A DNA stretch of 64,000 nt, from assembly GCF_001458255.1 (NCBI RefSeq), contig NZ_CYSB01000025.1, positions 124,001-188,000 of the forward strand, written 5' to 3'. Under the pieces are notes generated by a model that worked only from the letters and a program-made list of their open reading frames with translations, was not told the origin of the DNA and searched no databases. The DNA is from Thalassovita autumnalis (lineage in GTDB: Bacteria > Pseudomonadota > Alphaproteobacteria > Rhodobacterales > Rhodobacteraceae). Below, piece after piece: positions 17,207 to 49,709 of this stretch. The position numbers and the translations under genes were made by a program. How positions within the stretch are numbered: the first letter of the stretch is position 1; every line of letters starts with the position of its first letter.

Positions 17207-18079
17207 TTAGCCGCGACCACGCTTTTCAAACCGCGGCAGCATGGCCGAGAAGTCCATGCCCTGACCACCTTCGTTTTCGACAAACTGCTCATAAAGGGCC
17301 TTGGCCAGTTCGCCCATCGGGGTGTCGGCATCGGCGCTTTCGGCGGCTTGCTGGCTGAGGCGCAGGTCCTTCAGCATCAGTTCAGCAGCAAAGCCCGGCT
17401 GGTAGTCATTGTCAGCCGGTGATTGCGGGCCAACGCCGGGGGCGGGGCAATAGGCGTTCATCGTCCAGCTGTAGCCCGAGGAGGTGGAGACCACATCAAA
17501 CATCTTGCCGCGATCCAGCCCCAATTTGTCTGCCAAAGCAAAGGCTTCGCAGGTGGCGACCATGGTGACGCCCAGGATCATGTTGTTACAGATTTTGGCG
17601 GCCTGACCAGCGCCCGCATCGCCGCAATGCACGGCTTTCTGGCCCATGATGTCAAACAGCGGATCAACCGTGGCGAAAGCATCCGCGCCGCCGCCAACCA
17701 TGAAGGTCAAGGTGCCGCCTGCCGCGCCGCCAATGCCGCCGGAGACCGGTGCATCCAGTGCGCCAAGGCCGGCCGCCGTCGCCTGCTCTGCGACCGCGCG
17801 GGCGCTGTCGACATCCACGGTGGAACAGTCACAGAGCACAGCGCCTGCGGACATGGCAGGGATCACCTCACCGGCAACCGCGCGCAGGATCTGACCGTTG
17901 GGCAGCATGGTGATGACCACATCCGCGCCGGTGGCTGCGGCTGCGGCGGTGTCGGCTTTGCTGACGCCTTCGGGCATCGGTGCGGCCAGATCAAAGCCTG
18001 CAACCTCATGGCCTGCTTTGGCTAGGTTTGCGGCCATTGGGCCACCCATGTTGCCAAGTCCGATAAATCCGATTTTCAT
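17207..18079 (-). CDS. mmsB: 3-hydroxyisobutyrate dehydrogenase
   Basis: This enzyme oxidises 3-hydroxyisobutyrate to methylmalonate semialdehyde with NAD+, a late step of valine breakdown. The 290-residue sequence starts with the dinucleotide fold and family signature (FIGLGNMGGPMAANLAKAG), contains DAPVSGGIGGAAGGTL (about 121-136) and the catalytic-lysine region GAGQAAKICNNM (about 167-178). It is the last gene of a minus-strand run: acyl-CoA dehydrogenase, hydrolase, mmsB, with 10 bp or less between neighbours, so a single operon is likely. The product feeds MmsA, encoded 5 kb away on the same strand. Confidence 0.94.
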   Translation of the reverse strand: MKIGFIGLGNMGGPMAANLAKAGHEVAGFDLAAPMPEGVSKADTAAAAATGADVVITMLPNGQILRAVAGEVIPAMSAGAVLCDCSTVDVDSARAVAEQATAAGLGALDAPVSGGIGGAAGGTLTFMVGGGADAFATVDPLFDIMGQKAVHCGDAGAGQAAKICNNMILGVTMVATCEAFALADKLGLDRGKMFDVVSTSSGYSWTMNAYCPAPGVGPQSPADNDYQPGFAAELMLKDLRLSQQAAESADADTPMGELAKALYEQFVENEGGQGMDFSAMLPRFEKRGRG

Positions 18080-18089
18080 GTCTGTCTCC

Positions 18090-19121
18090 TCAGATCTTCA
18101 GGGCGTCATCGCCCAGCGGCAGCAGCATCTGGGTGATCTCAAGCGAGGTCACCTCGGCAGGGCTGCCATGTTTCCATGTGGGGGTGCGGTCCTTGTCAAT
18201 GATCTGGGCGCGGACGCCTTCCAGAAAATCACCCATATCCATGGACCGGTAGGTGAAGCGGAACTCCTGCTCCAGCGCTTTTTTGATCTCGTCCGTGGCC
18301 CGGGCGCGGTGCACCAGTTCGATCGTGCAGCCAGCAGAAAGCGGTGATACTCGGGTGAGCGTCTTCAGCGCCTTGGCGGCAAAGTCACTGTCCGCACCGT
18401 TGAGGGCGTTCAACACATCCGTCAGCCCGTCACCGGCAAAGAGCGTATCGATCTCATCTTGTTGCCCGGCTAGAACCCCGTCCGGGGATTTTTCTGCTGC
18501 GCGATCAATGGCTTCCCAGTCACCGGTCTGGGCCAGTTCAGCTGTCAGCGCAGCCCATTTTTCCTCTGGCACGAAGTAGTCGGCAAAGCCGGCGTGGATG
18601 GCATCGGCTGGCCCAATCCGGCCACCCGTGGCGCCCAGATATTCGCCAATCCGCCCCGGCGCACGGGCCAGGATCAGGGTGCCGCCCACATCCGGGATCA
18701 ACCCGATGCCGGTTTCGGGCATGGCGATCTGGCTGCTTTCGCCAACCACGCGGTGGGAGCCGTGACAGCCAATGCCAACGCCACCGCCCATGGTGAACCC
18801 CTGCATCAGCGAGGCCACGGGTTTGGGGAAGTTGAACAGCTTGGCGTTCATCCGGTATTCGTCACGCCAGAAGGTGCGGGCGATCTCATATTCGCCTTTG
18901 GTGCCTGCCTCATACATGGCGGCGATGTCACCGCCTGCGCAGAAGGCGCGCTCGCCCTCGGCGTCCAGCAGAACCATCTTCACGGCGTCATCAGTCGCCC
19001 AGGCATCCAGCGCCTTCTCAATCTCAAGGCACATCTCATAGCTGAGCGCATTCAGCGCCTTGGGACGGGTCAGGGTGATCCGGCCGATCTGGCCGTCGAT
19101 ACGGGTGTGGATGTCAGCCAT
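18090..19121 (-). CDS. 3-hydroxyisobutyryl-CoA hydrolase (enoyl-CoA hydratase superfamily)
   Basis: A 343-residue crotonase-superfamily protein of the 3-hydroxyisobutyryl-CoA hydrolase type, which releases free 3-hydroxyisobutyrate from its CoA ester in valine catabolism. Diagnostic features are AFCAGGDIAAMYE (about 59-71), GFTMGGGVGIGCHGSHRV (about 109-126), and PETGIGLIPDVGGTLILAR, with the Glu and Asp expected in the hydrolase branch. It is longer than plain enoyl-CoA hydratases (~260). It sits 3 bp after the acyl-CoA dehydrogenase gene and 10 bp before mmsB, which supplies the pathway context. Confidence 0.9.
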   Translation of the reverse strand: MADIHTRIDGQIGRITLTRPKALNALSYEMCLEIEKALDAWATDDAVKMVLLDAEGERAFCAGGDIAAMYEAGTKGEYEIARTFWRDEYRMNAKLFNFPKPVASLMQGFTMGGGVGIGCHGSHRVVGESSQIAMPETGIGLIPDVGGTLILARAPGRIGEYLGATGGRIGPADAIHAGFADYFVPEEKWAALTAELAQTGDWEAIDRAAEKSPDGVLAGQQDEIDTLFAGDGLTDVLNALNGADSDFAAKALKTLTRVSPLSAGCTIELVHRARATDEIKKALEQEFRFTYRSMDMGDFLEGVRAQIIDKDRTPTWKHGSPAEVTSLEITQMLLPLGDDALKI

Positions 19122-19124
19122 GGG

Positions 19125-20270
19125 TTATGCGTTCTCTGCCAGAAGTTGCCGCGCCACGATCAGACGCATGATTTCATTGGTGCCTTCAAGGATCTCATGC
19201 ACCCGCAGGTCACGCACGATCTTTTCAACACCATAATCGGCCAGATAGCCGTAACCGCCGTGCAGTTGCAGGCATTGGTTGGCCACTTTCGATCCGGTCT
19301 CGGTCACAAAACGTTTGGCCATGGCGCAGAATTTGGTGGCATCGGGCGCACCCTGATCCAGTTTCCATGCGGCCTGACGCAGGAAGGTGCGGGCGGCTTG
19401 CAGCTCAATCTCCATATCGGCCAGACGGAATTGCAGCGCCTGGAACTGGTCAATGGATTTGCCGAAGGCCTTGCGTTCGCTCATATATTGCAGCGTAGCG
19501 GTCAGTGCAGATTGTGCAGCACCCAGACTACAGGCTGAGATGTTGAGGCGCCCACCATCCAGACCCGCCATCGCGTATTTGAACCCGTCACCTTCGCTGC
19601 CAACCAGGTTGGCTGCGGGGATTTTGCAATCGTCAAACTGCACCTGACGGGTCGGCTGGCTTTTCCAGCCCATCTTATCCTCTAGCCCACCAAAGCTGAG
19701 ACCGGCGGTGCCGTCATCCACCACCACGGTGGAGATGCCCTTGGGCCCATCATCGCCGGTACGGACCATGACCACATAGGCGTCTGAGTAGCCGCCACCT
19801 GAGATAAAGGCCTTGGTGCCGTTCAGCGTGTAGCCTTCGTTGCTGCGCTCTGCGCGGGTTTTCAGCGCCGCTGCGTCTGAGCCGGAGCCGGGTTCTGTCA
19901 GGCAGTAGCTCAGCACCTTGTCCATGGTGATCGCGGGCGCAAGGAACTGTTCCTTCACATGGTCATCGCCGAAGGTGTCGAGCATCTTGGCGCACATGTT
20001 GTGGATCGACAGAAAGGCCGCCACCGAGGGGCAAGCCATTGAAAGGGCTTCAAAAACCAAAGTGGCATCCAACCGGCCAAGGCCCGAGCCGCCCGACTCC
20101 TCAGAGACATAGATGCCGCCCAGACCCAGCGCGCCCACTTCGGACCACAGCTCTTTGGGGATGGTGCCGTCTTTTTCCCATTGGTGGGCATGTGGGGCGA
20201 TATGTTCTTCGCCAAATGCCTTGGCCATGTCGAAAATGGCGGATTGTTCTTCGGTCAGTGCAAAATCCAC
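19125..20270 (-). CDS. Acyl-CoA dehydrogenase, probably isobutyryl-CoA dehydrogenase
   Basis: A 381-residue FAD-dependent acyl-CoA dehydrogenase. Family marks include CLTEPGSGSDAAALKTRAE (about 135-153), the substrate/FAD segment GTKAFISGGGYSD and the C-terminal QLHGGYGYLADYGVEKIVRD, followed by EILEGTNEIMRLIV with the expected catalytic glutamate near GTNE. The operon position ahead of the 3-hydroxyisobutyryl-CoA hydrolase and mmsB argues for isobutyryl-CoA as substrate (ACAD8-like), producing methacrylyl-CoA. The hydratase step between them is not encoded here. The enzyme class is certain; the substrate is inferred. Confidence 0.9.
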   Translation of the reverse strand: MDFALTEEQSAIFDMAKAFGEEHIAPHAHQWEKDGTIPKELWSEVGALGLGGIYVSEESGGSGLGRLDATLVFEALSMACPSVAAFLSIHNMCAKMLDTFGDDHVKEQFLAPAITMDKVLSYCLTEPGSGSDAAALKTRAERSNEGYTLNGTKAFISGGGYSDAYVVMVRTGDDGPKGISTVVVDDGTAGLSFGGLEDKMGWKSQPTRQVQFDDCKIPAANLVGSEGDGFKYAMAGLDGGRLNISACSLGAAQSALTATLQYMSERKAFGKSIDQFQALQFRLADMEIELQAARTFLRQAAWKLDQGAPDATKFCAMAKRFVTETGSKVANQCLQLHGGYGYLADYGVEKIVRDLRVHEILEGTNEIMRLIVARQLLAENA

Positions 20271-20418: not shown

Positions 20419-20856
20419 TTATTCTGCGGATTTCAGGTGCGGCGGGGTTTGCATGAGCGCTTGGATTTGCTGCGCCTTCAGCGACAGGTGTTGCATGGCC
20501 TCTTCGGCGGTTTCAGCGATGGAAACGCGGACCGAAGGGAAGGGCGCCCAGAAACTTTGCAAATTTGCGGCGATATCCTGTGACAGGGCATTGGGGGCAA
20601 AAAACACGAGTCTTGTTGTCGGTGCGTGCAGGTTTTGCGCCTGTAACACCTGTTGTTGTATCGCCAAGAATGCTGGCATTTCCAGCTTGACCAGAGTGAC
20701 CCGGGACAGATCGATCAGTTGGCGTTGATGTGGGGAATAGTCCACGTGGCTGCGGTAGCGCAGCATCAGTGTGCTGATCTCTTCGACAACAATGGCACCT
20801 TGATAGCGTGCGTAGACCAGATTGTGATCAAGAAAGATTTCAAATTCGGCTGGCAC
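20419..20856 (-). CDS. Paralogous small alpha/beta protein A (SpoIIAA/STAS-like pattern)
   Basis: An unassigned 145-residue cytosolic protein, last of five tandem paralogues on the minus strand. The order visible is strand NLVYARYQG (about 12-20), a helix, then LIDLSRVTLVKLEM (about 48-61), a helix rich in Gln, strand TRLVFFAPN (about 83-91), helix with W, and VRVSIAETAEEAM. That pattern resembles SpoIIAA/STAS-like domains. I place the start at GTG 20856: GGAGG lies 8 bp upstream, and the resulting MPAEFEIFLDHN aligns with MPAS starts of two paralogues. A TTG 15 bp upstream is less likely. No conserved phosphorylatable serine is obvious. Function unknown. Confidence 0.75.
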   Translation of the reverse strand: MPAEFEIFLDHNLVYARYQGAIVVEEISTLMLRYRSHVDYSPHQRQLIDLSRVTLVKLEMPAFLAIQQQVLQAQNLHAPTTRLVFFAPNALSQDIAANLQSFWAPFPSVRVSIAETAEEAMQHLSLKAQQIQALMQTPPHLKSAE

Positions 20857-20915
20857 GCTAGTGTCCTCCAAAAATCAGGGTGATTTGGGTAAGACACAGT
20901 CAAAAAACGTGGGGG

Positions 20916-21338
20916 TCAGTCTTTTTCTGCTGCGATCATTTCAGCAAAAGACCTATAAGGCAATTGAAGTATAAGTAAAGCTTCGCTTTCGCTGGCGGTC
21001 AGATGGACATCAATCAATGGGACGGCCTCCCAGAACCTGAGGTAGTTCTTGGCCAGCTTAGCGGATTTTCCATCGGGCACATACATCACATAGGTGCGTG
21101 CCTTGCCGCCCATGGTTAGGATCGGTTCCATGATGGAATGCAGGGCCATCCGTTTTTGATAGTCGATCCGACTTTCTTCAATGCCGGACATGTCAGCCAA
21201 CATGTTTTGCCCCGGGCGGGCCGCAGGGTGGGTGGCGTAGGTTTCAAACGCGGCAATGGAATCCGCGTCAGTCACCAATCCGTGGGATCGCATGAACATG
21301 AGATCCGATTTTTCCAAAATGCTTATTTCTAGCGGCAT
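20916..21338 (-). CDS. Paralogous small alpha/beta protein B
   Basis: A 140-residue member of the same family. It shares YATHPAARPGQNMLADMSG (about 31-49) with neighbour C almost word for word (YATHPDARIGQDILSDMSG there), so B and C are the most recent duplicates in the array. Other shared elements are the opening strand with hydrophobic-Met-Phe, the strand ARTYVMYVP, LAKNYLRFWEAVP and the late SESEALLIL. The ATG at 21338 is preferred over an upstream TTG because it yields the family-type N terminus MPLEISIL, with GGGAAG just upstream. Soluble, no signal peptide, function unknown. Confidence 0.75.
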   Translation of the reverse strand: MPLEISILEKSDLMFMRSHGLVTDADSIAAFETYATHPAARPGQNMLADMSGIEESRIDYQKRMALHSIMEPILTMGGKARTYVMYVPDGKSAKLAKNYLRFWEAVPLIDVHLTASESEALLILQLPYRSFAEMIAAEKD

Positions 21339-21452
21339 CGGTCTTCCCAAATGGTCGAGTGAAACCAAGTGATATCGGTACCTTACGAGGACTAAACTAT
21401 ACAGTTCATAGGCGAAAGGGTCAGTACGGGATATACCGTAGAAAGCTCAAAT

Positions 21453-21872
21453 TTATTCATTTCTATCCAGTACTTCCGCGATTGATCCTGCCGTAATTTT
21501 AAGCAGAGCCAGCGCTTCGGCTTCGTTTGCAGTGACATGAGCTGTCACAGAGGGTGTGCAATCCCAAAGCGCGGCATATTGATCGGCCAATTCCTGTGAT
21601 TGCGGGGTTGGCGCAAAGTAAACGATGGTGCGGTTCTTGTCGCCGAGTCCTAGAACCCGGTCCAGTGACGCCTGCAGCGCCAAACGTTTAGGTAGGTCAA
21701 AATATCCGGTTTCAACCCCGCTCATGTCGCTGAGAATATCCTGACCAATCCGCGCATCGGGATGGGTCGCGTAGGTCTGCAGCGCCTCGGCGCTTTGGTC
21801 ATCGTTTACGATGCCGGACCAAACCATGATCACAAGATTGCGTTGCAACAGGATGTCTAGGTCAATGGCCAT
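21453..21872 (-). CDS. Paralogous small alpha/beta protein C
   Basis: A 139-residue member, closest to B. It opens MAIDLDILLQRNLVIMVWSG, then YATHPDARIGQDILSDMSGVE, a helix KRLALQASLDRVL, strand NRTIVYFAPTPQSQELAD, a Trp (LWDCTP), and VTANEAEALALL. The ATG at 21872 is the only good start, although the ribosome-binding site is weak. The 37-bp gap to D and 84-bp gap to B, all on one strand, suggest a common transcript. It has the strand-helix order of STAS-like domains but no recognised catalytic motif. Confidence 0.75.
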   Translation of the reverse strand: MAIDLDILLQRNLVIMVWSGIVNDDQSAEALQTYATHPDARIGQDILSDMSGVETGYFDLPKRLALQASLDRVLGLGDKNRTIVYFAPTPQSQELADQYAALWDCTPSVTAHVTANEAEALALLKITAGSIAEVLDRNE

Positions 21873-21909
21873 GAGTGGTCTTTCGGATCTTGGGGGGTAA
21901 GCGGGGGGA

Positions 21910-22335
21910 TTAGTGCAGCAGGGGGGAACTGATCACCTGTCGTAACGTGCCGTCGGGATCATCCAGAAACCTCAGCGCCTCATCGGTGGTTTCGCAGATA
22001 ATCGGCTGCGGCATTGGCAACCCGTCCCACAGATGGCAGATCATTTTGGCAAAGCTCATCGCCACATCCGTGGGGGCCAGATAGATCGGGGTTGGCGGGT
22101 AGTCGACCTGTTTCAACTCGGCCAAAGTGGTACGCATTGCCTGCATTGCCTTGGCATAGTCCAACTCAACCGAGATAACTTCGGTGAAGTCGGCAAGTTG
22201 TTGTAATTTCGGGTGATAATCAGGATCAACAGTCAGCTCGGCCAGCAAAGCTTTGGTTTCCCCAGCACGAATGTGGCCGCTGTAACGGAAATAGACGATG
22301 TCTTCTTTCGCCAGGATCTTGAAGCTGACCGTCAC
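21910..22335 (-). CDS. Paralogous small alpha/beta protein D
   Basis: A 141-residue member that starts with GTG and has no clear ribosome-binding site. It reads DIVYFRYSGHIRAGETKALL, then DPDYHPKLQQLADFTEVISVELDY, a helix, strand TPIYLAPTDVAMSFAKM, HLWDGLP and CETTDEALRFL. It keeps the paralogue landmarks: the R-Y-x-G after the first strand, D-P, L-x-D-x-x-x-V, A-P, and E-A-L near the end. Sequence divergence from the other four is high, so the array is old apart from the B/C pair. Function unknown. Confidence 0.7.
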   Translation of the reverse strand: MTVSFKILAKEDIVYFRYSGHIRAGETKALLAELTVDPDYHPKLQQLADFTEVISVELDYAKAMQAMRTTLAELKQVDYPPTPIYLAPTDVAMSFAKMICHLWDGLPMPQPIICETTDEALRFLDDPDGTLRQVISSPLLH

Positions 22336-22408
22336 GTCGGGGGGCTGCCTGTATTGTTATTCTTCTGCGCTCAGCTTGCGGGGTAAGTCTGCCCAAATCA
22401 AGAATAAT

Positions 22409-22846
22409 TTACCCAGCGGCAGAAGGGCAGTTGTCTTGTTGCACCATGGTCGCGAAATCATCGAGGGGGATTTCCAGCTCTGCGAGTGCAGAGGCTTCAC
22501 TGTCTTCTACAATTGAAACCTCCGCACCCGATGGTTCCCATGTTTTGGCAATAAGGCGGGCAAAGGTGCAGCCAAAATCGGTTTGAGCAAACAGCACCAG
22601 GCGTACGGGATCCCCGCTTGGGGCGATTTTTTGCATCCGGTATTTCTGCAGCTCGCGCATTTTGACCAGATCCATCTGCGCGCCGGTGACCCGGTTCAGG
22701 TCAAACAGGCCGCGTTGATTGATCCGGAAATCCCGGTGGTTCAGGTATTTTTCAAAGTTCTGAGCGGTCTCAATCGTTAAAAGGTAATCTGAGTACCGTA
22801 CCAACACCAAATTCCACTCGGGGTAGATCGTGGTCGATGCGGGCAT
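22409..22846 (-). CDS. Paralogous small alpha/beta protein E
   Basis: First gene of the array in transcription order, 145 residues. It begins MPASTTIYPEWNLVLVRYSD and carries GLFDLNRVTG, MRELQKYRMQ, strand VRLVLFAQTDFGCTFARL, KTWEPSG and EVSIVEDSEASALAEL. The N terminus MPAS-xx-YP is shared with the distant paralogue at 47.3 kb. The ATG at 22846 is preferred over a TTG at 22861. The mmsA terminator lies only 15-45 bp upstream, so a separate promoter must sit inside the end of mmsA or the terminator must leak. Function unknown. Confidence 0.75.
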   Translation of the reverse strand: MPASTTIYPEWNLVLVRYSDYLLTIETAQNFEKYLNHRDFRINQRGLFDLNRVTGAQMDLVKMRELQKYRMQKIAPSGDPVRLVLFAQTDFGCTFARLIAKTWEPSGAEVSIVEDSEASALAELEIPLDDFATMVQQDNCPSAAG

Positions 22847-22860
22847 CGTAAAATGGTCCA

Positions 22861-22890
22861 AAGAAAAACAGCGGCTGAAGGATCAGCCGC
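22861..22890 (-). terminator. Terminator of mmsA
   Basis: Perfect 8-bp stem GCGGCTGA/TCAGCCGC with a 4-base loop, followed in the minus direction by TGTTTTTC. It sits 25 bp after the mmsA stop and directly ahead of paralogue E. Confidence 0.85.
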
Positions 22891-22915
22891 CGTCAAACTT
22901 AGCAGAACTAAGAAA

Positions 22916-24415
22916 TTAGTCCATTGCCTTGAAGGCAAACTCGCCGCCCTCTTTGATGCCGGAGAACCAGCGGGCCGTGACGGTTTTGGTTTTGGTGTAG
23001 AACCGCAGCGCATCCGGGCCGTACTGGTTCAGGTCACCAAAGGCCGATTTCTTCCAGCCGCCGAAGGTGAAGTAGGACAGCGGAACCGGGATCGGGAAGT
23101 TGATGCCAACCATGCCGACGTTCACTTTGTTGGCAAAGTCACGCGCGGTGTCGCCATCTGCGGTGAAGATCGAGGTGCCGTTGCCGTAGTTGTTCTTGAT
23201 GATCAGGTCCAGCGCCTCGTCATAGCTTTCGGTGCGCACCTGACTCAGAACCGGGCCAAAGATTTCTTCTTTGTAGATGTCCATGTCTGCAGTGACATTG
23301 TCAAAGAAGGTCGGGCCAACATAGTAGCCGTTTTCATAACCCTGCAGGCTGAAATCACGACCATCGGTGACCAGTTCCGCACCCTGCTCAACACCCGAGG
23401 AGATAAGGCCGTTGATACGGTCCTTCGCCTGTGCGGTGATGACGGGGCCGTAGTCGACATCTTCTTCCGACGTGTAAGGGCCAACCTTCAGCGCCTCGAT
23501 GCGGGGCACCAGACGTTCGCGCAGGGCGTCGGCGGTTTTCTCACCAACAGGCACAGCAACCGAGATCGCCATGCAGCGTTCGCCAGCGGCGCCAAAGCCT
23601 GCGCCAACCAGCGCATCAGCAGCTTTGTCCATGTCTGCGTCGGGCATGATGATCATGTGGTTCTTGGCACCACCGAAGCACTGGGCGCGTTTGCCGTTGG
23701 TGGCGGCGCGGCCATAGATGTACTGGGCGATCGGGGTCGAGCCCACAAAGCCAACAGCCTGAATGTCCTCGTTGTCCAGGATCGCGTCCACGGCTTCTTT
23801 GTCGCCGTTCACAACCTGCAGAACGCCATCGGGCAGGCCTGCTTCTTTCAGCAGTTCCGCCAGACGCAGCGAGGTCGAGGGGCAGCGCTCGGACGGTTTC
23901 AGGATCATCGCGTTACCGGCAACCAGCGCCGGGGCCATTTTCCACAGCGGGATCATGGCGGGGAAGTTGAACGGGGTGATGCCCGCAACAACGCCCAGCG
24001 GCTGACGCATCGAGTAGAGGTCGATGCCGGGGCCGCCGTCATTCATGTACTCGCCCTTCAGCATGTGCGGGGCGCCCATGCAGACTTCGACCACTTCCAG
24101 ACCACGCTGCACGTCGCCGCGCGCGTCGGGCAGGGTTTTGCCGTGTTCACGGCTGACCAGCTCAGCCAGTTCGTCCATGTGCTCGTTGATCAGCGCACCG
24201 AACTTCATCATCACGCGGGCGCGACGCTGCGGGTTGGTGGCGGCCCAAGCCGGCTGTGCAGCTGCGGCTTTGGCAATGATGGCGTCCATTTCTTCTTTGG
24301 TCGCCAGCGGGACCTTGCTGGCCGGCTCACCGGTCGCAGGGTTGCAGTTTTCAGTGTAACGGCCCGAGGTGCCAGGCACCATTTCACCGTCTACGTAGTT
24401 CATGATTTCCTGCAT
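22916..24415 (-). CDS. mmsA: CoA-acylating methylmalonate-semialdehyde dehydrogenase
   Basis: MmsA converts methylmalonate semialdehyde to propionyl-CoA with NAD+ and CoA, completing valine (and myo-inositol/thymine-type) catabolism. The 499-residue aldehyde dehydrogenase has GITPFNFPAMIPLWKMAPAL (about 152-171), the KPSERCP cofactor lysine region, VGFVGSTPIAQYIY and the nucleophilic cysteine in GERCMAISVAV (near 285). The ATG at 24415 has AAGGAGGA upstream, and the upstream extension of the frame is spurious. It is divergent from a LysR-type gene, with 169 bp between starts, the usual layout for a regulator and its target. Confidence 0.96.
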   Translation of the reverse strand: MQEIMNYVDGEMVPGTSGRYTENCNPATGEPASKVPLATKEEMDAIIAKAAAAQPAWAATNPQRRARVMMKFGALINEHMDELAELVSREHGKTLPDARGDVQRGLEVVEVCMGAPHMLKGEYMNDGGPGIDLYSMRQPLGVVAGITPFNFPAMIPLWKMAPALVAGNAMILKPSERCPSTSLRLAELLKEAGLPDGVLQVVNGDKEAVDAILDNEDIQAVGFVGSTPIAQYIYGRAATNGKRAQCFGGAKNHMIIMPDADMDKAADALVGAGFGAAGERCMAISVAVPVGEKTADALRERLVPRIEALKVGPYTSEEDVDYGPVITAQAKDRINGLISSGVEQGAELVTDGRDFSLQGYENGYYVGPTFFDNVTADMDIYKEEIFGPVLSQVRTESYDEALDLIIKNNYGNGTSIFTADGDTARDFANKVNVGMVGINFPIPVPLSYFTFGGWKKSAFGDLNQYGPDALRFYTKTKTVTARWFSGIKEGGEFAFKAMD

Positions 24416-46346: not shown

Positions 46347-47126
46347 ATGGAATACGAAACAATTAAGCTTGAGATTTCCAAAGACGGCGTGGCGATTTTG
46401 ACGCTGAACCGCCCAGATAAAATGAACGCGCTGAACACCCAGATGCGGGCTGAAATCACCCATGCGGCGCAAGAAGCGGCGGGCAAGGCACGGGTTCTGG
46501 TGCTGACCGGCGCGGGCAAGGCGTTCTGCTCGGGTCAGGATCTGAGCGCCCGCGCCAATGCCAACAATCTGGATCTGGAACGCACCCTGCGGGACGAATA
46601 CGGCCCGATGCTGAAAGCGATTTATGACTGCCCGATCCCGACCATCTGCGCGGTGAACGGTGCAGCAGCCGGGGCAGGGGCGAACCTGGCGCTGGCGGCG
46701 GACGTGGTGATCGCCAAGGAAAGTGCCTATTTCCTGCAGGCGTTTTCGCGCATTGGCCTGATCCCTGACGCTGGCGGCACCTACTGGATGACCCGCAACA
46801 TGGGCATGGGTAAGGCGATGGGTGCTGCGCTGTTCGCTGATAAGATCTCGGCCCGTCAGGCAGATGACTGGGGCCTGATCTGGGAAGCGGTGCCGGACGC
46901 CGAATTTACCGCGATCTGCAAAGCCCGTGCGCTGCACCTGGCCAAGGGCCCGACCCTGGCCTATGAACACATCAAATCAGCCATCCGGGGCAGCTGGGAC
47001 AACTCGCTGGAACAGCAGCTGGAACTTGAGGGTCGCAAGCAAGGCACCTGCGGTCAGAGCCGTGATTTCAAAGAAGGTGTTGTGGCCTTCCTGGAAAAGC
47101 GCCCGCCGCATTACGAAGGCCGCTAA
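46347..47126 (+). CDS. Enoyl-CoA hydratase/isomerase, PaaG-like
   Basis: A 259-residue crotonase-fold enzyme. It resembles PaaG, the 2-(1,2-epoxy-1,2-dihydrophenyl)acetyl-CoA isomerase of phenylacetate degradation: FCSGQDLSARAN (about 60-71), FSRIGLIPDAGGTYW (about 133-147), QADDWGLIWEAV and a C-terminal SRDFKEGVVAFLEKRPP. Other paa genes are absent from this window, so a general enoyl-CoA hydratase role is possible. AAGAGGGAG precedes the ATG. A terminator follows. Confidence 0.85.
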   Translation: MEYETIKLEISKDGVAILTLNRPDKMNALNTQMRAEITHAAQEAAGKARVLVLTGAGKAFCSGQDLSARANANNLDLERTLRDEYGPMLKAIYDCPIPTICAVNGAAAGAGANLALAADVVIAKESAYFLQAFSRIGLIPDAGGTYWMTRNMGMGKAMGAALFADKISARQADDWGLIWEAVPDAEFTAICKARALHLAKGPTLAYEHIKSAIRGSWDNSLEQQLELEGRKQGTCGQSRDFKEGVVAFLEKRPPHYEGR

Positions 47127-47317: not shown

Positions 47318-47740
47318 ATGCCCGCAAGTTATCAAGTTTATCCAAAACAACGCCTTCTCTACGTGCGTTATGAGGGGCACCATCACACACGTCAGACCGA
47401 AGATCTGTTGCCTTATTACCGGTTGGATCCGATGGTCAGGCCCGGTATGCGCTGCATGATCGACTGTGAACATCTGACAAGCGCCAAGATTGACATTGAC
47501 CTGAGACGCCAACAGATGGATCAGCTGTGTGCCTTGCTGAAAGATCCAGCGAAAGATTGGCCCATCGTCTACTATTGCCCGAATAAGGTCAGCCAAAGCC
47601 TGACCGCCATGACCGCCAAGATGTGGGCGGAATATGAGGGGGTCAGTTTTCAGGTGGCGAAGACCCGCGAAGAGCTGGCCCAGATCCTGAACGAGCCGCT
47701 GGATTTCGTCGATATGATTCTGCAACGGCCAACGACGTAA
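47318..47740 (+). CDS. Paralogous small alpha/beta protein F
   Basis: A 140-residue cytosolic member of the same family as the five at 20.4-22.9 kb. It opens MPASYQVYPKQRLLYVRYEG, then HHHTRQT, DPMVRPGMRCMIDCEHL, IDLRRQQMDQL, strand WPIVYYCPNKVSQSLT, KMWAEYEG and late EELAQIL. It shares HHHT, DLRRxQM and YYCP with its neighbour G, so F and G form a subgroup. GGGGGTGG precedes the ATG. It lies on the plus strand, between a terminated enzyme gene and G. Function unknown. Confidence 0.78.
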   Translation: MPASYQVYPKQRLLYVRYEGHHHTRQTEDLLPYYRLDPMVRPGMRCMIDCEHLTSAKIDIDLRRQQMDQLCALLKDPAKDWPIVYYCPNKVSQSLTAMTAKMWAEYEGVSFQVAKTREELAQILNEPLDFVDMILQRPTT

Positions 47741-47926: not shown

Positions 47927-48346
47927 ATGAGTGTGACCTATACTGTTTTGCCTCAGTATCAGCTGCATTATGCGCGTTATTTCGGTCATCACCATACAGT
48001 TCATACAAGTCAGTTGTTGGCTGACTACCGGCGCGATCCTCTCATCCGGCGCGGCTTGCGTTCTGTTTTGGATTTCTCCCGCATTCAGAGCGCTGAACTT
48101 GATCTGGACCTGCGCCGGCGGCAGATGGAAGATCTTTATGGGATGTTCTATCAGCCCGGCACCACGTGGTGTGTAACATACTACTGCCCAACCGAAATTA
48201 GCCGTGGCCTGACCTCAATGCAGCAAAAGATGTGGGAGTCGTGGCCCGATGTGGATTTTCTCGTCTCCGACAACATCCGGGACATCGCCCAGAAAGTGGA
48301 CGTTCATGAGGACGTTATTCGATCCTTGGTCACGCAGAAGGTTTAA
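47927..48346 (+). CDS. Paralogous small alpha/beta protein G
   Basis: A 139-residue sister of F. Shared phrases: QLHYARYFGHHHTVHTSQLL, DPLIRRGLRSVLDFSRI, LDLDLRRRQMEDLY, strand TYYCPTEISRGLTSMQQKMW, DVDFLVSDNIRDIAQ. The R-Y-x-G, D-P, L-D-x-S/x and C-P positions match the five-gene array. The ATG at 47927 has GAGAGGA 8 bp upstream; a GTG 6 bp earlier is less well placed. The 186-bp gap from F suggests a separate promoter. Function unknown. Confidence 0.78.
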   Translation: MSVTYTVLPQYQLHYARYFGHHHTVHTSQLLADYRRDPLIRRGLRSVLDFSRIQSAELDLDLRRRQMEDLYGMFYQPGTTWCVTYYCPTEISRGLTSMQQKMWESWPDVDFLVSDNIRDIAQKVDVHEDVIRSLVTQKV

Positions 48347-48413: not shown

Positions 48414-49709
48414 TTAGCGGTTTTCAACATCCACGTAGTCGCGGTTGGTCTCACCCAGATACAGCTGACGCGGACGGCCGATTTTGTTCTGAGGATCTGC
48501 GATCATTTCTTTCCACTGCGAGACCCAGCCGACGGTGCGCGACAGCGCGAAGATCGGGGTGAACATCGAGGTCGGGAAGCCGAGGGCCTCAAAAATGATG
48601 CCCGAGTAGAAGTCTACGTTCGGGAACAGTTTCTTCTCGATGAAGTAGGGGTCTTCCAGTGCGATGCGCTCCAGCTCTTTGGCAACCTGCAGCAGCGGGT
48701 TGTCTTCGACGCCCAAGAGTTCCAGCACTTCGTCGGCGGATTCTTTCAGAACCTTCGCACGCGGGTCGGTGTTTTTGTAGACACGGTGACCAAAGCCCAT
48801 CAGACGGAACGGATCGTTCTTGTCTTTGGCGCGTTCGATGAATTCCGGGATACGATCGACGGAGCCGATTTCTTTCAGCATTTCCAGACAGGCCTGGTTT
48901 GCACCACCATGCGCCGGGCCCCAGAGGCAGGCGATGCCAGCAGCGATACAGGCAAACGGGTTGGCACCCGAGGACGATGCCAGACGTACGGTCGAGGTCG
49001 AAGCGTTTTGTTCGTGGTCGGCGTGCAGCGTGAAGATACGGTCCATCGCGCGGCTGACGATCGGGTTCACTTCATACTGTTCTGCAGGCACCGAGAAGCA
49101 CATATGCAGGAAGTTTGCAGCGTAATCCAGATCGTTGCGCGGATAGACGAAGGGCTGACCGATCGAGTATTTATAGGCCATCGCAGCGATGGTCGGCATC
49201 TTGGCGATCAGACGGTGCGATGCGATCTCACGCTGGCGCGGATCCGAGATATCGGTCGAGTCGTGGTAGAAGGCAGCCATGGCGCCAACAACACCCACCA
49301 TGATCGCCATCGGGTGTGCATCCCGGCGGAAACCACGGAAGAAGTTGTGCATCTGCTCGTGGATCATGGTGTGGCGGGTGATCGTGGTCTCAAACTCTTC
49401 CAGCTGAGCCGCGGTCGGCAGCGCACCGTAAAGCAGCATGTAGCACACTTCGAGGTAATGCGACTGACCGGCCAGCTGATCGATCGGGTAGCCGCGGTGC
49501 AGCAGCTCACCTTTGTTACCATCGATATAGGTGATGGTGCTGTCGCAGGACGCGGTCGAGGTGAAGCCCGGATCGTAAGTGAAGACGCCGCCCTGTGCGT
49601 AGAGCTTGCGGATGTCGATCACATCGGGGCCAGCCGTGGGGCTGAACATTGGCAATTCCAAAGTTTTCCCGTCAAACGTCAGCGTTGCGCTTTTGGTCGA
49701 TTCCGTCAT
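48414..49709 (-). CDS. gltA: Citrate synthase
   Basis: Type II citrate synthase, condensing oxaloacetate and acetyl-CoA at the entry of the TCA cycle. 431 residues as in other hexameric enzymes. Landmarks: N-terminal [20 protein letters not shown] (about 29-48), [10 protein letters not shown], the catalytic histidines in [10 protein letters not shown] (about 230-239) and [12 protein letters not shown] (about 268-279), and the Asp in the [15 protein letters not shown] block. Alone on the minus strand downstream of gltX, with a terminator. No unusual features. Confidence 0.98.

Follow-up and report, generated by a model that had tools for sequence, protein, structure and literature searches.

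A predicted STAS-like protein family encoded behind mmsA in Rhodobacteraceae and multiplied in Thalassovita autumnalis

STAS-like modules, among them SpoIIAA and RsbV, have mostly been described in sigma-factor partner switching and in anion transporters. For the SpoIIAA-like structures 2OOK and 2Q3L (Shewanella), which represent PF11964 (DUF3478), one report (PMC2954212) proposes a role as CRAL-TRIO-like ligand carriers or sensors. Here we describe a predicted module of this kind in a locus for core amino-acid degradation in marine bacteria. In a stretch of 64,000 nucleotides from Thalassovita autumnalis (contig NZ_CYSB01000025.1, positions 124,001 to 188,000; the whole stretch is called the window below), five consecutive minus-strand open reading frames (ORFs) encoding proteins of 139–145 amino acids occupy positions 20419–22846, where they are bounded by an acyl-CoA dehydrogenase gene and by mmsA, the gene for methylmalonate-semialdehyde dehydrogenase. 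The original prediction of five tandem homologous genes separating these two neighbours was sound, as the ORFs lie at these coordinates and protein E finds A to D, but it stopped at five and missed two further members on the plus strand of the same window. The seven members, A to G, are the following.

22409..22846, minus strand: array gene A, member of the predicted STAS-like family, 145 amino acids, adjoins mmsA
21910..22335, minus strand: array gene B, same predicted family, 141 amino acids, GTG start
21453..21872, minus strand: array gene C, same predicted family, 139 amino acids
20916..21338, minus strand: array gene D, same predicted family, 140 amino acids, nearest paralogue C
20419..20856, minus strand: array gene E, same predicted family, 145 amino acids, GTG start, adjoins the acyl-CoA dehydrogenase gene
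47318..47740, plus strand: paralogue F, 140 amino acids, flanked by a crotonase-family gene and paralogue G
47927..48346, plus strand: paralogue G, 139 amino acids, convergent with gltA

The family has a preferred place in the genome. A sequence-only search of bacterial genomes yielded 80 loci (of 82 relatives); since the query was made of conserved members, this sample by design includes no locus without a conserved copy. In 73 of the 80 loci the family gene is preceded, in the same orientation, by mmsA (at least 60% identity), at a distance of 0 to 2053 positions that is mostly below 210, and in 63 an acyl-CoA dehydrogenase gene additionally follows downstream. Within the stretches fetched, ten of the remaining loci have mmsA without such a dehydrogenase, one has the dehydrogenase alone and six have neither. 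The family match begins 0–3 positions past the end of mmsA in 13 loci, which suggests that the two genes are co-transcribed there. A second route started from a seven-row profile built from the window members; of 394 genomes in the taxonomic family, 95 were positive. From the 93 positive genomes outside the window’s genus, 60 were taken in handle order, and 57 of these came with coordinates: in 45 a family gene follows mmsA in the same orientation within 1.4 kb (in one of these, G196, it is interrupted by a stop), and in 12 none does. The two routes share genomes (judged by length, G193 and L066, for example, are one contig) and are therefore not independent samples. The check that had been proposed, whether other genomes also have the gene next to mmsA, thus came out strongly positive, and the array is not the local curiosity it had been taken for: one copy next to mmsA is a common arrangement, and the five genes are an expansion of it.

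The position directly downstream of mmsA is conserved, as that of a component of the valine-catabolism locus would be. It is not obligatory: each of the 80 genomes tested, of which 60 have the family gene and 20 lack it, gave an mmsA match at E ≤ 1e-150 (in one of the latter, G016, at only 56–65% identity). As all 20 genomes without the family gene still carry mmsA, the gene is an optional companion of mmsA and not an essential step. The order in Rhodobacteraceae is mmsA, the family gene, sometimes a GCS2-type ligase gene, and the genes for acyl-CoA dehydrogenase, 3-hydroxyisobutyryl-CoA hydrolase and 3-hydroxyisobutyrate dehydrogenase; genes in the fetched loci were chosen by GC content at codon position 3 and by BLAST, not by a gene finder. 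The product of the gene that stands between the family gene and the dehydrogenase gene in 33 of the 80 loci resembles a GCS2-type carboxylate-amine ligase, a resemblance of the BLAST cluster judged by eye from a shared N-terminal motif, with one copy scanned (PF04107 in L214). We considered this ligase as an obligate partner and rejected it, because it occurs in those 33 loci and is absent from the window.

Used as a query against its own genome, protein E retrieved A–D with E values of 3.1e-10 to 1.7e-6, and F and G were retrieved in the same search. Beyond the seven members themselves, a profile built from them returned a single broken copy at E ≤ 1, located outside the window. In the window’s own genome, a distant member outside the window is interrupted by a stop (L150 5954-6196, equal to G000:C25 ~270995-271318), and its counterpart in the sister genome G007 is open (L148 6318-6797). 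Pairwise identity among the window members is 19–40%, with C/D (39.6%) and F/G (38.1%) as the closest pairs, so that no two of them are recent duplicates. The statement that B and C are such duplicates was therefore overstated; the pair meant is C/D if the genes are lettered by coordinate, and lettered in order of transcription it is 22% identical. The shared landmarks that had been listed hold in part: the Trp (Trp103) and the Asp of L-x-D are among the positions invariant in A–E, but R-Y-x-G is strict in B and E only, and F-A-P is found in C and E only.

None of the five array proteins matched a Pfam model at E ≤ 10, PF01740 included. NCBIfam gave nothing significant for the five (one noise match at 0.042), PADLOC was empty for all seven window members, and PHROGs returned nothing for A, C and E plus two relatives; the description of the family as unassigned agrees with all these scans. 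Compared with Pfam at E ≤ 1, 95 family members, seven of them from the window, matched 23 families: PF01740 (STAS) weakly in two members (best E 0.0074), and the other 22 in one to three members each, with a best E of 0.0012 and a chance-like pattern. PF11964 was not among the 23. A sequence-profile search of the PDB yielded nothing beyond designed helical repeats and weak matches to chemoreceptors. Hence A–G form a family that none of the libraries searched models. The literature searched, which mostly did not extend to subscription papers, yielded no paper on the family, on its link with mmsA or on the diversifying arrays. A defence or phage origin was considered and rejected, as neither PADLOC nor PHROGs (A, C, E and the two relatives) gives it support.

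Structure models were made of B and C, two of the seven window members and two of the five in the array. The two AlphaFold models (predicted local distance difference test, pLDDT, 88.3 and predicted template modelling score, pTM, 0.83 for B; 88.5 and 0.84 for C) share one predicted STAS/SpoIIAA/SEC14-like fold, which at modest comparison scores speaks for the initial guess of a SpoIIAA-like domain and for a fold common to the array. The best solved-structure matches include the SpoIIAA-like 2OOK/2Q3L and SpoIIAA itself. The top Foldseek matches are STAS anti-sigma antagonists (4HYL, 1TID, 1TH8), which rank above CRAL-TRIO folds. The modelled members are thus predicted to have the STAS fold and that of 2OOK/2Q3L.

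The register of the phospho-site was taken from an hhalign alignment of low probability. In this register, positions 57–60 hold Ser or Thr in nine of 95 rows and neither in 86, and position 59 is Asp or Glu in 82; a Ser/Thr that could be phosphorylated where helix 2 begins is not a feature of the family across these rows. The conserved columns, defined on the 66 single-copy rows, comprise 34 positions conserved in at least 85% of them. Fifteen of the 34 are polar, and these suggest a genuine binding site in the single-copy type. Window proteins A–E keep 16–21 of the 34 positions (A 19), F keeps 16 and G 13, and the diverged array copies keep 7–10 of the 15 polar ones. In each of the 13 multi-copy loci among the 80 (L101 excluded) exactly one copy keeps 29–33 of the 34, all others keeping 9–25. 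The window array is without any copy of this conserved type, and the four copies at mmsA in G225 keep 11–15.

Copy number varies at the conserved place. A single copy is present in 66 of the 80 loci, two in 11, three in two and four in one, the last (L101) including a broken gene; four copies lie beside mmsA in G225 and three in G272. Within the genus, where three of nine genomes have no member, G004 and G006 each have a pair of copies at mmsA plus a single one at gltA, and the sister genome G007 matches the window with five at mmsA and two at gltA. In a tree with 43 of 116 forks open and long branches flagged, E clusters with the dehydrogenase-side gene of G004/G006, C and D fall near their mmsA-side gene (83, an open fork), A joins Nioella copies through a very long branch, and B has no assigned place. 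Because E and C/D group with the two genes of G004/G006, the five-gene array may have started as a pair of genes. The ratio of nonsynonymous to synonymous substitution rates (dN/dS) between the window’s genome and G007, a simple Nei-Gojobori count on this one genome pair, is 0.08–0.26 for the seven members (A 0.26, B 0.10, C 0.12) and 0.02–0.07 for ten neighbours. With such values all seven are under purifying selection and not in neutral drift. The position in the locus is thus retained while the sequence drifts, and all window copies have departed from the conserved type.

The genes and sites around the array and around F and G are as follows.

22916..24415, minus strand: mmsA, methylmalonate-semialdehyde dehydrogenase, TIGR01722, 649 bits against a cut-off of 448.5, start codon inferred
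22867..22894, minus strand: terminator-like hairpin in the gap between mmsA and gene A, 12 pairs, T-rich tail
19125..20270, minus strand: acyl-CoA dehydrogenase, matched by acyl-CoA dehydrogenase models, each below its cut-off
18090..19121, minus strand: 3-hydroxyisobutyryl-CoA hydrolase, NF004127, 389.5 bits against a cut-off of 274
17207..18079, minus strand: 3-hydroxyisobutyrate dehydrogenase, TIGR01692, 366 bits against a cut-off of 291.6
46347..47126, plus strand: crotonase-family gene upstream of F, best model PaaG TIGR02280, 290 bits and below its cut-off of 345, start codon inferred
48414..49709, minus strand: citrate synthase gltA, TIGR01798, 771 bits against a cut-off of 485

The array neighbours are genes of valine degradation, with mmsA, the hydrolase and 3-hydroxyisobutyrate dehydrogenase exceeding curated NCBIfam cut-offs. 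Terminator-like sites are weak by count (4 found, 3.9 expected from shuffles). As the hairpin between mmsA and A is also present in G007, where a single pair differs, the array in the window may be transcribed separately from mmsA. Near the array, neither inspection by eye of the ORFs of at least 80 amino acids at 15–29 kb nor NCBIfam scans of ten genes revealed a kinase, phosphatase or sigma regulator; the scans covered only some of the ORFs, and a partner could be encoded elsewhere.

Members also occur away from mmsA. Beyond the taxonomic family they were found in 13 genomes of the class sample; no mmsA was among the ORFs shown at nine mapped loci from six of these 13, and no functional theme emerged among the neighbours outside the mmsA niche in the loci inspected. 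Stray members form close same-strand pairs with genes for an alpha/beta hydrolase (L215 4022-5391), a zinc-type dehydrogenase (L218 4326-5889) and a cytochrome P450 (L230 4508-6175). Copies of the conserved type that have no mmsA in the fetched stretch (L148 3830-4300 in G007, L093, L110, L111, L115 and L126) come from Shimia, Octadecabacter, Loktanella and G007 and form one tree cluster, which looks like horizontal transfer. In G007, a gene for a hybrid histidine kinase (PAS-HisKA-HATPase-receiver) is closely followed, in the same orientation, by one member (L149 5019-7695), a hint of signalling.

Our preferred, still tentative, reading is that A–G belong to a stand-alone, single-domain STAS/SpoIIAA-like family whose members act as non-phosphorylatable binding or regulatory proteins for valine or acyl-CoA catabolism. 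The main genomic home of the gene in Rhodobacteraceae is directly 3' of mmsA in the valine-degradation locus, where it was multiplied to five copies in this Thalassovita lineage, each of them drifted from the conserved type. The proteins would be cytosolic binding modules without the serine-phosphorylation switch, unlike SpoIIAA. They might dock on the valine/acyl-CoA enzymes encoded next to them, or sense a metabolite on their behalf, and so tune enzyme activity or assembly, and the diverged copies could have specialised in partner or ligand. It is possible, if doubtful, that this phosphorylation-blind family is a dedicated valine/acyl-CoA accessory in Rhodobacteraceae and its paralogues a set of distinct adaptors or sensors for the pathway enzymes. 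The main rival holds that the proteins carry or chaperone a nonpolar ligand, acyl-CoA-related or other, in a CRAL-TRIO/SEC14-like pocket, with paralogues differing in ligand. We consider this unlikely, given that Foldseek places STAS anti-sigma antagonists over CRAL-TRIO folds and that the intermediates of valine breakdown are soluble CoA esters, for which no lipid carrier is needed.

The same Foldseek ranking, together with the G007 member that adjoins the PAS-HisKA-HATPase-REC protein, would suit partner-switching modules of the SpoIIAA/RsbV/SiaC type that serve a distant kinase/sigma system and are merely housed at the locus. However, with Ser/Thr missing at positions 57–60 in 86 of 95 rows and no kinase or phosphatase recognised near the array (ORFs viewed by eye, ten scanned genes), a classical partner switch becomes less likely, and distant signalling would leave the strong tie to mmsA unexplained; we judge this reading improbable. 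Slightly less credible still are passenger genes without a pathway role, collected as copies of a dispensable family at a duplication-prone spot. Patchy presence (95 of 394 genomes), fast divergence, variable copy number and the broken copy elsewhere in the window’s genome are all compatible with passengers, but dN/dS of 0.08–0.26 in all seven members, the same niche across many genera and a five-gene array shared with G007 argue against them. An enzyme of the valine or a related CoA pathway, with conserved polar residues as its active site, could account for the 15 polar positions conserved in at least 85% of the 66 single-copy members; it is nonetheless very improbable for a small single domain whose diverged array copies retain just 7–10 of these positions, and mmsA is present in 20 of 20 tested genomes that do without the family gene.

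The frequent location of the family directly behind a valine-breakdown gene and its repeated multiplication there suggest an overlooked helper or regulator of valine breakdown. Its fixed position and variable copy number make this idea directly testable by simple genetics.

In comparison with the described systems, the likeness to SpoIIAA and RsbV (PF01740) includes the L-x-D-L-S-x-V strand of the family, which hhalign places in register at low probability. The family differs from them in that the aligned phospho-serine is not conserved, and in that the array sits in a catabolic locus with no kinase or phosphatase gene recognised near it. From PF11964, the family of 2OOK and 2Q3L, it is set apart by the lack of a detectable sequence relation (hhalign about 1%, 1.3%, with seven members); a true PF11964 gene elsewhere in the same genome (C39:7614-7940) is not listed by the family profile at E ≤ 1. 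What is already known is the fold; neither the family nor its link with mmsA nor the diversifying arrays turned up in the libraries and literature searched.
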